A stretch of DNA of 64,000 nt from Xanthomonas sp. (GTDB taxonomy: Bacteria; Pseudomonadota; Gammaproteobacteria; Xanthomonadales; Xanthomonadaceae): assembly GCA_018262705.1 (NCBI GenBank), contig JADFDQ010000013.1, forward strand, positions 1 to 64,000, written 5' to 3'. The first letter of the stretch is position 1, and every line of letters begins with the position of its first letter. This document shows, one piece after another, positions 59,022 through 63,817 of this stretch. The translations under genes and the position numbers were made by a program. The notes beneath the pieces are model-generated. The model saw only the letters and a program-made list of their open reading frames with translations. It did no database searches and was not told the origin of the DNA.

Positions 59022-59387
59022 ATGGGGAAGGCACTCGCAGGTCGGCGGCAATCCGTCCTGCGAAGCATCCGCGTCGGACACCTGTTCCTGAATCAATACG
59101 GACAACCCCTGTCTCCTGATGGGTTGAGCTGGCGCGTGCGCGATTACTTCACGCAGGCCGGCATCACCAAGCGCGGCGCGTGTCACCTGTTCCGACACAC
59201 GATGGCGACGGCCATGCTCGACAACGGCGCGGACATCCGCCACGTGCAGGAGATCCTCGGGCACGGGCAGATCACCAGCACGCAGCGCTACACGCACGTG
59301 TCCATTGCGCGCTTGCACGCGGTGCATGCGGCGACGCATCCGGCGGCAAAGCTCACCCGTTCATCCACCCCTGATCCAGAGGTCTAG
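59022..59387 (+). pseudogene. Truncated tyrosine recombinase/integrase, C-terminal catalytic part only
   Basis: ACHLFRHTMATAMLDNGADIRHVQEILGHGQITSTQRYTHVS; no N-terminal core-binding domain. Confidence 0.85.
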
Positions 59388-59388
59388 A

Positions 59389-59625
59389 ATGCAGCTAACC
59401 CTTCACGAGGTTCCGGTCATGTCCGCCGTCAAACAGGAAGCGCACAAGCTGATCGACACGCTGCCCGAAGCGGCCAGCTGGAACGATGTGGTGCGCGCCG
59501 TGGATGAAGCCCGGTTCCACGAGGCGGTGCGGGAAGGGATCGCGGCGGCGGATCGAGGCGACTTTGCCAGCCCGGAACGGGTCAAGGCGATGTTCGCCAA
59601 ATGGGGCGTCGATGTTGCGGCTTGA
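59389..59625 (+). CDS. Putative type II antitoxin
   Basis: MSAVKQEAHKLIDTLPEAASWNDVVRAVDEARFHEAVREGIAAADRG; overlaps the toxin start. Start may be 59419. Confidence 0.75.
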   Translation: MQLTLHEVPVMSAVKQEAHKLIDTLPEAASWNDVVRAVDEARFHEAVREGIAAADRGDFASPERVKAMFAKWGVDVAA

Positions 59626-59902
59626 GTGGACGACGCCCGCCGCCGACCAGCTCGAACACGCGCAGACCTACTATCACGCCCTCAACCCGATGGCGGCCAC
59701 GTTGATGGCCATGCGGATCGTGGAAGCAGCGCAGCGATTATGCGATCAGCCGAGCATGGGACGGCTTGGGCGCGTGCCCGGTACGCGGGAGTGGGTGGTG
59801 TCTCGGACGCCGTATCTGCTGGTGTACCGCGCCAGTGGTGATGCGTTGGAAGTGCTGCATGTGTGGCACGAGGCGCAGGACTGGGCATCGCACACCGAAT
59901 GA
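59612..59902 (+). CDS. RelE/ParE-superfamily toxin
   Basis: LEWTTPAADQLEHAQTYYHALNP, GRLGRVPGTREWVVSRTPYLLVYR, LEVLHVWHEAQDW. Confidence 0.88.
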   Translation: MLRLEWTTPAADQLEHAQTYYHALNPMAATLMAMRIVEAAQRLCDQPSMGRLGRVPGTREWVVSRTPYLLVYRASGDALEVLHVWHEAQDWASHTE

Positions 59903-59919: not shown

Positions 59920-60411
59920 GCTTAACGCTGCGCGTTCAAGCCGACGCCGAATCGCCACACCGACCATCCTCGCGATCCGACCGGCGAGCACGAGCGGCAG
60001 CAGTGCGTGACCGATCACCCCGTTGCGGCCATCCCTGGCCGCGCTCGCGCCACGCGGCCCAACCCGCTGCGCGTGTTGCAGTCCCAACATAACGCCGGAT
60101 TATGCAAACCGCCGGTCTGTCACGGCGCGTGCGCAAGAGCTGCGCGCCAAAGAGCCGATGCGCAGCACGCGCCGCGCCAGCCCGTCGCTTCGCATAATCA
60201 GCGTTGATGTTGGCTGGCCTGCCGGCGCGTTGCGCCGGGGCCGCGTGGCCCAACCACGCTCGCTCACCGGCGCGCACATCCCTGTGCGCGCAGTGCGCGT
60301 GCTGCGCACGCCCACAGAGCCGCGTGCGCGCTACGCGCCCACGCTACGCGCCCACGCAAGAGCGCCTGGCACGTCCACATGTGCGGGCGGCGCGGCTCAA
60401 CTGCGTTGGAG
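59920..60411 (+). other. attC-like palindromic array (candidates near 59920-60081, 60084-60214, 60248-60411)
   Basis: RYYYAAC boxes gcttaac, gcccaac, gcccaac, gctcaac at 59920, 60057, 60248, 60395; long imperfect dyads such as CAACATAACGCCGGATTATGC / GCATAATCAGCGTTGATGTTG. Confidence 0.45.
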
Positions 60412-60752: not shown

Positions 60753-61568
60753 TTGAGGATCGCCGAACCCGTGTCAGAGCTCACCGCACTCGCAAAGCCG
60801 CGCCGCATCAAGGCCTCGCACCGTCGGCGAGGCAAAGTCGCGTCGGGTCAGAGTGTTCAGCGCTATTACGATCCGGCGCTGGGCGTGTTCCTGTCAGTCG
60901 ATCCGGTGACGGCTTACAGCAATCCGGTGGGGGCGTTTAATCGGTATTGGTACGCCAGCGGGAATCCGTATCGGTTTGTGGATCCGGATGGACGAACTGC
61001 AAACAGGGTTAATCCAAAGCCAGGCGCTGGTTCAGATGGATCCTCTGAGCCTCCTGAGCATGACCAAAATCGTCCTAATGGGTGTGGTACAGCGCGAGTT
61101 TGTTGGCGTGATTCGAATAATAACTGGCACGTTACACCTATTCCGCTGTATCTCTACGCGCAGAACCGAGCAAATGTTGGTGCAATTGTCGGCGCTTGGT
61201 CAGTAATAAGGGGTAATTATCGAGCAGTGCGGCAAGCTGCTCGCATAAATGGACTTCTTGGACAACAAGAAAAGGCAGATGCGCAGATCGAAAGTCAGAT
61301 CTTCGATAGAGCAATTGAGGAGCTCGCAGCGAATCCAGAATTACAAGAGGCACTTTACCGCGAGTTAAAGGATAAGTTACGACGTACTGATTTATCAGAT
61401 CCATATTTACAGGGATACATCGCTGGCAGGCTCGCGGCAGGCGCATACCTTCGACCCTTAGGTGTGTCGGCGGCGATCGGTGACGCTCTTCAAGGTGTTG
61501 AGAATGGCTTACACGAGGTCGCTGATCTCGTTTGGCATGGCGCATTTGGGAGCGATATTTCTAAATGA
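60753..61568 (+). CDS. Orphan Rhs core tip with variable C-terminal toxin domain (Rhs-CT)
   Basis: QRYYDPALGVFLSVDPVTAYSNPVGAFNRYWYASGNPYRFVDPDGR core end, then an unrelated roughly 190 aa tail; no upstream Rhs repeats. Confidence 0.82.
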   Translation: MRIAEPVSELTALAKPRRIKASHRRRGKVASGQSVQRYYDPALGVFLSVDPVTAYSNPVGAFNRYWYASGNPYRFVDPDGRTANRVNPKPGAGSDGSSEPPEHDQNRPNGCGTARVCWRDSNNNWHVTPIPLYLYAQNRANVGAIVGAWSVIRGNYRAVRQAARINGLLGQQEKADAQIESQIFDRAIEELAANPELQEALYRELKDKLRRTDLSDPYLQGYIAGRLAAGAYLRPLGVSAAIGDALQGVENGLHEVADLVWHGAFGSDISK

Positions 61569-61810
61569 ATATGATTACGTTGCCCCGGCTGATTTTTGCT
61601 GCATTTTCCATCGCGGTCGGTTCAGTGTTGATGGGGGCGCTGTTTCGATTCAGGCCTTTATTTTTTTCGATAACGCTTATTCTTATTTTTATGTCAGGCT
61701 ATCCATTTGTTTGGTTAGTTACTGGAGAGGTAAAGCGAAAAATGATTAGTCTAATTTTGATAATGAGTTCAATCGGGGGCGGTATAGTTGGGTGGTATTG
61801 GAGTCACTGA
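61565..61810 (+). CDS. Small membrane protein, candidate Rhs immunity protein
   Basis: 81 aa with about three hydrophobic segments; ATGA overlap with the Rhs-CT stop. Confidence 0.6.
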   Translation: MNMITLPRLIFAAFSIAVGSVLMGALFRFRPLFFSITLILIFMSGYPFVWLVTGEVKRKMISLILIMSSIGGGIVGWYWSH

Positions 61811-61823
61811 GTCACCATTTCGC

Positions 61824-61895
61824 GAGTCTGTAAATTGAACTGTGTATCTGCCCTTTGAGACGATGCGGCGATAGCCGCGAGGAGCAGGTACATGG
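61824..61895 (+). mobile_element. IS-end-like direct repeat A, copy 1
   Basis: gagtctgtaaattgaactgtgtatctgccctttgagacgatgcggcgatagccgcgaggagcaggtacatgg. Confidence 0.7.
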
Positions 61896-61935
61896 GGCGA
61901 GAACAAGGAAAAAATGGTGCCAGGGACAATTATCG

Positions 61936-62058
61936 GAGTCTGTAAATTGAACTGTGTATCTGTCCTTTGAGACGATGCGGCGATAGCCGCGAGGAGCAGG
62001 TACATGGCACTGACAAAAGCGCAGTTGGACGCATTGACGGCAGGCTACAGCACGCCGC
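61936..62058 (+). mobile_element. IS-end-like direct repeat A, copy 2, with truncated transposase start
   Basis: Same roughly 72 bp as copy 1, then atggcactgacaaaagcgcagttggacgca (MALTKAQLDALTAGY). Confidence 0.65.
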
Positions 62059-62096
62059 GGGTCTGTCAAACCAACTGTGTATCTGAGTTTCATCAC
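62059..62096 (+). mobile_element. IS-end-like direct repeat B, copy 1
   Basis: gggtctgtcaaaccaactgtgtatctgagtttcatcac. Confidence 0.7.
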
Positions 62097-62159
62097 GGCG
62101 CATCCAGTGGGACGCGCTCCTCACCGAACATCAGCTGGAAGCTCTGCAGCGCAGGTTTC

Positions 62160-62197
62160 GGGTCTGTCAAACCAACTGTGTATCTGAGTTTCATCAC
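62160..62197 (+). mobile_element. IS-end-like direct repeat B, copy 2
   Basis: gggtctgtcaaaccaactgtgtatctgagtttcatcac, 101 bp after copy 1. Confidence 0.7.
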
Positions 62198-62299
62198 AGC
62201 GCACGGTTCGCAGCAAAATCAAGACACCCACCATTCAAAAACAAGGACACCCGCCATTCGAACATTCCCTGATTCCAAACCGAGGGTTTACCTGAACCT

Positions 62300-63817
62300 C
62301 ATGACACCGCCGATGGCCTGCCGGCCACCGTCACCACGGCCATCAATGGCGCGACCGTCACCAACACCTGGAGCTACAACCACCGCCGCCTGCCCACCCT
62401 CGAGCGCGTGCAGCCGGACGCCAGCCAGACCTTCAGCTTGAGCTACGGCTACAACGCCCTCGGCCAGGTCATCACTGAAACCCTCAGCGATGGGGTCATC
62501 CTGAGCTACGCCGTCAATGCGCTGGGGCAGGTGGCGCAGGTCAACGCCCAAGTGGCGGGTGCCACCACCCCGCTGGCCAGCAATGCCCGCTACTACCCCA
62601 ACGGCGCGCTGGCCCAGTTCACCTACGGCAACGGCATCGTCCACACCCTGACCCAGAACGCCAGACAACTGCCGGCCCGCAGCGTGGATGGCAGCGTGCT
62701 CGACCTGAGCACCGCCTTCGATGCCAACGGCAATGTCGCCGCCATCACCGACAACACGCCAAGCGCACGCCAGACCCGCGCCATGACCTACGACGGGCTG
62801 GACCGGCTCACCGGCACCACCTCGCCAATGTTTGGCAGCGCCGGCTATGCCTATGACGCCCAGGACAACCTGACCCGGGTGCAGGTGACCGGCGGCAGCC
62901 AGCCGCGCGATCACACCTACTGCTACAACGCAACAAACCAACTGACCTTCGTGCGCAGCGGCCCCAACTGCAGCGGCAGCGCCAGCCCGGCGGTGACCGC
63001 GCTGGGCTATGACCTGCAGGGCAACCTGAGCTTCAAGAACAACGCCAGCTACGCCTTCGACTTCGGCAACCGCCTGCGAGCCACTGCGAACCAGAGCTAC
63101 CGCTACGACGCCCAAGGCCGGCGGGTGCGGCAGGACGTGGCCGGCAGCCAACTGCAATACAGCCAGTACGCCGCCGATGGCCGGCTGATGTGGCAACGGG
63201 ATGAAACAACCAACCAGCGCATCGCCAATGTCTATCTGGCCGGCAGCCTGCTGGCGGAAATCAGCCGGCCGCTGACCGGCAACACGACCACCATCCGCTA
63301 CCTGCACACCGACGCCCTCGGCAGCCCGATTGCCAAGACCAACGCCAGCGGCGCTATCATCGAAACCAGCGAGTACGAACCGTATGGGAGGCTGCTGAAC
63401 CGAGCCAACGACAACCGCGCGGGGTATACCGGGCATGTGATGGATGCGGCGAGCGGGCTGGTGTATATGCAGCAGCGCTATTACGATCCGGCGCTGGGTG
63501 TGTTTCTGAGTGTTGATCCGGTGGCGTCAAACATGAACAACGCCTGGAACTTCAATCGCTATAACTACGCGGCGAATAATCCATATAGGTTTACGGATCC
63601 CGATGGGAGAGTAGTGAAATCAGAAGATGCTTCTGATAATCAAGATCTTCTGACGCATATCAATATAGATTCGCGCACGCAGTACAAATTTGACGATAAC
63701 AATCGGCTAACGAAAGACGAAAATGCCAATGACAACGATCATGGGTCAAGTTATTACTCGGAAAGGCTTGACGCAGCGATAGCGAGCGAGAAGACGCTTA
63801 GCCTAGCAGGCCGCTGA
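62300..63817 (+). pseudogene. 5'-truncated Rhs protein, C-terminal part, 3' end cut by an IS
   Basis: YGYNALGQVITETLSDG, YRYDAQGRRVRQDV, YLHTDALGSPIAKTNASG, QQRYYDPALGVFLSVDPVASN; reading frame is open upstream of the called ORF to about 62282. Confidence 0.85.

Follow-up and report, generated by a model that had tools for sequence, protein, structure and literature searches.

The window, a 64,000 nt stretch of Xanthomonas sp. DNA, harbors a small Rhs-type module close to its end, consisting of two overlapping reading frames on the forward strand. In brief, the first frame (60753-61568) encodes a leader of 35 codons (60753-60857), the tip of an Rhs core, QRYYDP...DPDGR, of 46 codons (60858-60995), and a variable C-terminal region (CT) of 190 amino acids followed by the stop codon (60996-61568), the candidate toxin, which is without a family match. 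The second frame (61565-61810) encodes a protein of 81 amino acids with three predicted membrane segments, the candidate immunity protein. The leader is in frame with the tip and is not of Rhs origin, as no Rhs similarity is found 5' of position 60858. It offers two possible starts, a TTG at 60753 and a GTG at 60771 preceded by AGGA, and the start codon of the tip-CT frame is presumably one of these.

The residues of the tip, QRYYDPALGVFLSVDPVTAYSNPVGAFNRYWYASGNPYRFVDPDGR, match the curated model TIGR03696, Rhs_assc_core, with 46.7 bits (E 3.4e-12) against a cutoff of 32.5 bits. These 46 residues are the only Rhs part of the frame; the carrier is otherwise absent and the upstream sequence is non-Rhs. 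The reading frame is unbroken across the junction between tip and CT. The stop codon of the CT and the start codon of the 81 amino acid ORF share the sequence ATGA, giving a 4 nt overlap at 61565-61568. The sequence-only reading of this DNA had described a short Rhs core tip fused to a tail of roughly 190 amino acids, and an 81 amino acid protein with about three hydrophobic segments overlapping the toxin stop by 4 nt; each of these details was found again.

The same reading had seen the locus as AT-richer than its flanks, and this agrees with the base composition. The CT has a GC content of 0.50 and the 81 amino acid ORF one of 0.41, compared with 0.656 for the window. The module is the most AT-rich part of the window, and an equal AT content is reached in 4 of 1264 segments of 810 nt, all of them lying over the locus. 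We used 3000 dinucleotide shuffles to estimate what is expected by chance downstream of the CT. Any ORF of at least 81 codons beginning at most 25 nt from the CT stop was found in 3.3% of the shuffles, and such an ORF with at least three predicted membrane segments in none of the 3000.

The tip was found in 122 of the 199 genomes sampled from the family, and in the loci that were read out the tails behind it are mutually unrelated. The tail is accordingly a variable one and not a segment of the conserved core, which was one of the outcomes that the sequence-only reading had named as refuting its proposal. DNA similarity between the module and other Rhs loci begins exactly at 60858 and mostly stops near 60994, with almost nothing beyond. 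The 38 distinct CTs, including the one described here, fall into 30 clusters, 23 of which are singletons, and this CT is one of the singletons. Many of the CTs in the family have an ORF directly 3' of them, and a 4 nt overlap is the commonest spacing. Because the same tip in relatives precedes unrelated tails, frequently with a following ORF in 4 nt overlap, we read the locus as an Rhs-CT/immunity pair that has been displaced (an orphan), which is a known type of element and in which the immunity partner is a candidate. The sequence-only reading had already proposed an orphan Rhs-CT accompanied by a membrane protein as immunity candidate, and the tip, the variable tail and the three-segment ORF linked by ATGA support this. 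By eye, the tip itself appears to be a mosaic, the first part resembling the neighbouring rhs fragment and the second part an rhs gene from the same genus (L013). This suggests recombination inside the tip in the past.

The neighbouring rhs fragment (62273-63817) is truncated at its 5' end, lies downstream of the module on the same strand, and carries a tip of the same kind at 63473-63610. Its CT breaks off after 68 residues, adjoining transposase and insertion sequence DNA. Two pairs of direct repeats, of 72 nt at 61824/61936 and of 45 nt at 62058/62159, occupy the region between the module and the rhs fragment (61824-62203, forward strand). They are probably remnants of mobile element ends, and a search against plasmids gave no match. 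The third Rhs tip of the genome, on contig C9, is followed shortly by a transposase gene and the contig end. No full-length rhs gene was recognised in the 24 contigs of the assembly. The earlier suggestion that the module lies behind an active rhs gene is not supported, as the only rhs sequence nearby is this downstream fragment, which has lost its 5' part and continues into insertion sequence DNA.

As judged from these features, the surroundings of the module look decayed. We found no promoter above chance level that is placed to serve the module, which is probably silent or vestigial in this genome; missing pieces of the assembly could alter this picture. The truncated genes and mobile element repeats around the module, the loss of the carrier part and the missing promoter would all fit a dead remnant, in which the CT and the 81 amino acid ORF are decaying and have no function at present. 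We nevertheless consider this quite improbable, given that the frame is intact over tip and tail, that none of the shuffles produced a three-segment ORF at that position, and that the arrangement is the commonest one among the relatives.

A very stable hairpin (-55.7 kcal/mol, z -8.05) with imperfect arms of 49 nt, resembling an integron attC site, is located upstream on the negative strand at 60080-60218. It follows a ParE toxin gene at 59486-59902 (PF05016, 1.2e-16), and the C-terminal fragment of a tyrosine recombinase, at 59022-59387, also precedes it. We rejected an integron cassette, as the attC-like hairpin is found upstream only, with no second one flanking the module, and there is no other copy of the sequence in the genome.

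The orphan rhs-CT/rhsI of Salmonella LT2 and other polymorphic toxin cassettes resemble the module in having the end of an Rhs core, a variable CT and a small 3' gene, with most of the Rhs protein missing (PMC3967940, PMC3482391). In LT2 the orphan follows an intact main rhs gene and has 522 bp in common with it at 95% identity, and this provides a recombination route for its activation (PMC3967940). Here, in contrast, approximately 134 nt are shared at 73% identity with the downstream fragment, and no intact rhs was recognised. It should be noted that a position behind an intact main rhs with long near-identity is typical of LT2 and is not needed for every orphan.

The toxin domain had not been recognised in the sequence-only reading, which called for profile searches of the CT; these gave no match in Pfam or in NCBIfam, PADLOC, PHROGs and the PDB. 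Nor was there a match to any enzyme or nuclease family at E values up to 1. Plasmids, phages, viral contigs (three viral scans) and E. coli genomes gave no hits. The same was true for a collection of genomes from 84,980 species, covered in two scans with twelve patterns of 8 residues that detect close relatives only. HMM searches of samples from the genus, family, order, class and phylum returned only matches that look like chance (L004, L005 and L010). For the 81 amino acid protein, no relative was found in the viral, plasmid and family searches. The missing matches of the CT deserve little weight because most of the CTs sampled from the family are equally isolated, with one of ten others reaching the Pfam cutoff. 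As far as can be told from sequence, the CT is an unclassified toxin domain with no detectable relative in any of the collections searched.

The 81 amino acid protein is strongly hydrophobic (GRAVY 1.18). This sets it apart from most of the partners sampled, which are either soluble or carry no more than a single segment at the N-terminus. The only other clearly polytopic partners are found in a family member (L050) that carries two Rhs-CT modules, ending at 835 and 4242. These partners are proteins of 77 amino acids with two and of 124 amino acids with four predicted segments, and the toxins of these two modules are candidates for membrane action. The target of the CT described here is plausibly linked to the membrane, because its partner is polytopic, a property that almost none of the other sampled partners has.

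A full-length Rhs protein of the family (L047, 6605-10702) has an N-terminus resembling a secretion signal as well as bacterial Ig domains, and gave no match to PAAR. Behind the same tip in another relative (L040), the CT matches Peptidase_M15_3 (1e-14). Several downstream partners have lipobox-like N-termini with a cysteine (L013, L023, L024, L029 and L036). Since the full-length protein combines a signal and Ig domains with no PAAR match, and since one CT is an M15 peptidase, toxin action outside the cytoplasm is plausible, and the lipoprotein-like partners also point there. We suggest that the Rhs toxins of this family plausibly work mainly outside the cytoplasm, and a membrane-embedded immunity protein makes sense for such a toxin. 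Together, the membrane-embedded partner and the likelihood that these Rhs proteins work outside the cytoplasm point to the inner membrane as the place where the CT may act.

Immunity proteins of the membrane can equally protect from enzymes that work outside the cytoplasm, and this counts against a pore. The toxin of the orphan pair may then be an enzyme that attacks an envelope or membrane-linked substrate without forming a pore, the membrane protein shielding either the toxin or its target. The peptidase-type CTs behind the same tip and the soluble character of the CT argue for such an enzyme. We consider it somewhat unlikely, as no enzyme family was matched and as the peptidase-type CTs are not accompanied by polytopic membrane partners. 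The toxin of the pair could also work in the cytoplasm, as a nuclease or similar, with the membrane partner blocking its entry or not being an immunity protein at all. Nucleases are numerous among the Rhs and CDI toxins (PMC11630599, table 2), and several of the sampled CTs have soluble partners. The strong hydrophobicity of the partner and the failure to match any nuclease family make a cytoplasmic toxin quite improbable here.

Membrane depolarisation by pairs whose immunity protein is small and hydrophobic has been published for the CDI ionophores (PMC11630599) and for Tse5/Tsi5 (PMC9637101). The alpha-helical CDI ionophores of type 10, CdiA-CT EC93 and its relatives, have very hydrophobic immunity proteins of 72-100 amino acids that form a two-helix hairpin, and their toxins end in a five-helix bundle and have a GxxxGxxxG zipper in common (PMC11630599). 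The family has no database designation (PMC11630599). Compared by published description, our module is similar in its partner of 81 amino acids with high GRAVY. Five long helices are seen in both AlphaFold models of the CT, which were made from single sequences and have very low confidence (pLDDT 43). The module differs in having an Rhs and not a CdiA carrier, a partial zipper, and three instead of two predicted helices in the partner. The partial glycine zipper, GYIAGRLAA, spans residues 140-148 of the CT; the full GxxxGxxxG is absent, and GxxxGxxx[GAS] patterns are frequent in unrelated CTs. Because the zipper is incomplete and helices at this pLDDT are no evidence, we say only that the CT may work like the CDI ionophores, and not that it is a member of them.

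In the pair Tse5/Tsi5, an Rhs pore-former that a type VI secretion system (T6SS) delivers is countered by a small immunity protein of the membrane; Tse5 contains a PAAR-like domain, and membrane helices are predicted for its CT (PMC9637101). The module is similar in that its CT is borne by Rhs and its immunity candidate is a small membrane protein. Unlike Tse5, it lies in a genome in which no T6SS sheath gene was found, as no match to T6SS_VipA was obtained, and we rejected a T6SS effector in this genome for the same reason. A further difference is that the CT has no predicted membrane helix. Its 19-residue Kyte-Doolittle mean peaks at 0.95, which places it in the bottom third among 43 CTs, and the hydropathy scan found no segment of membrane-helix grade, so that the fairly hydrophobic tail of the first reading is not supported. 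Hydrophobicity of the tail and the glycine zipper were discarded as signs of membrane action, as unrelated CTs score equal or higher.

We propose, with a probability of about 0.45, that the locus is an orphan Rhs-CT/immunity module whose CT dissipates the membrane potential as a pore or ionophore, and membrane depolarisation is our leading single guess for the mechanism. The CT not being hydrophobic for its class, the very low confidence of its models and the absence of a homologue of known function from the collections searched count against a pore. It is rather unlikely that the CT is the first member of a new toxin family that depolarises membranes in the manner of the CDI ionophores, with exported Rhs proteins with Ig domains as carriers and a three-helix immunity protein as partner.

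The conserved tip would serve as the stretch over which such modules can be swapped into full-length rhs genes at their 3' end. Fusion to one of the exported Rhs carriers of the family would set the CT free beyond the cytoplasm, where its site of action would be the inner membrane of an adjacent cell and its effect most probably the loss of the membrane potential. The 81 amino acid protein, situated in the inner membrane of the producer, would block the CT. In the present genome the module would perhaps be mainly an immunity reserve. The sequence itself shows how the module is built, that its tail varies, that the partner is of membrane type and that the surroundings are decayed, whereas toxicity, immunity, the target and the recombination with a carrier are inferred from it.

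Characterised examples of membrane-acting pairs carried by Rhs proteins are few, and CT/immunity pairs without a match are a source from which new antibacterial activities can be drawn. The pair described here is real but ordinary in kind, and its toxin domain is unclassified. The more useful wider result is that the Rhs proteins of this family bear a large and mostly unclassified repertoire of CTs, and a single unclassified tail should therefore not be taken as exceptional.
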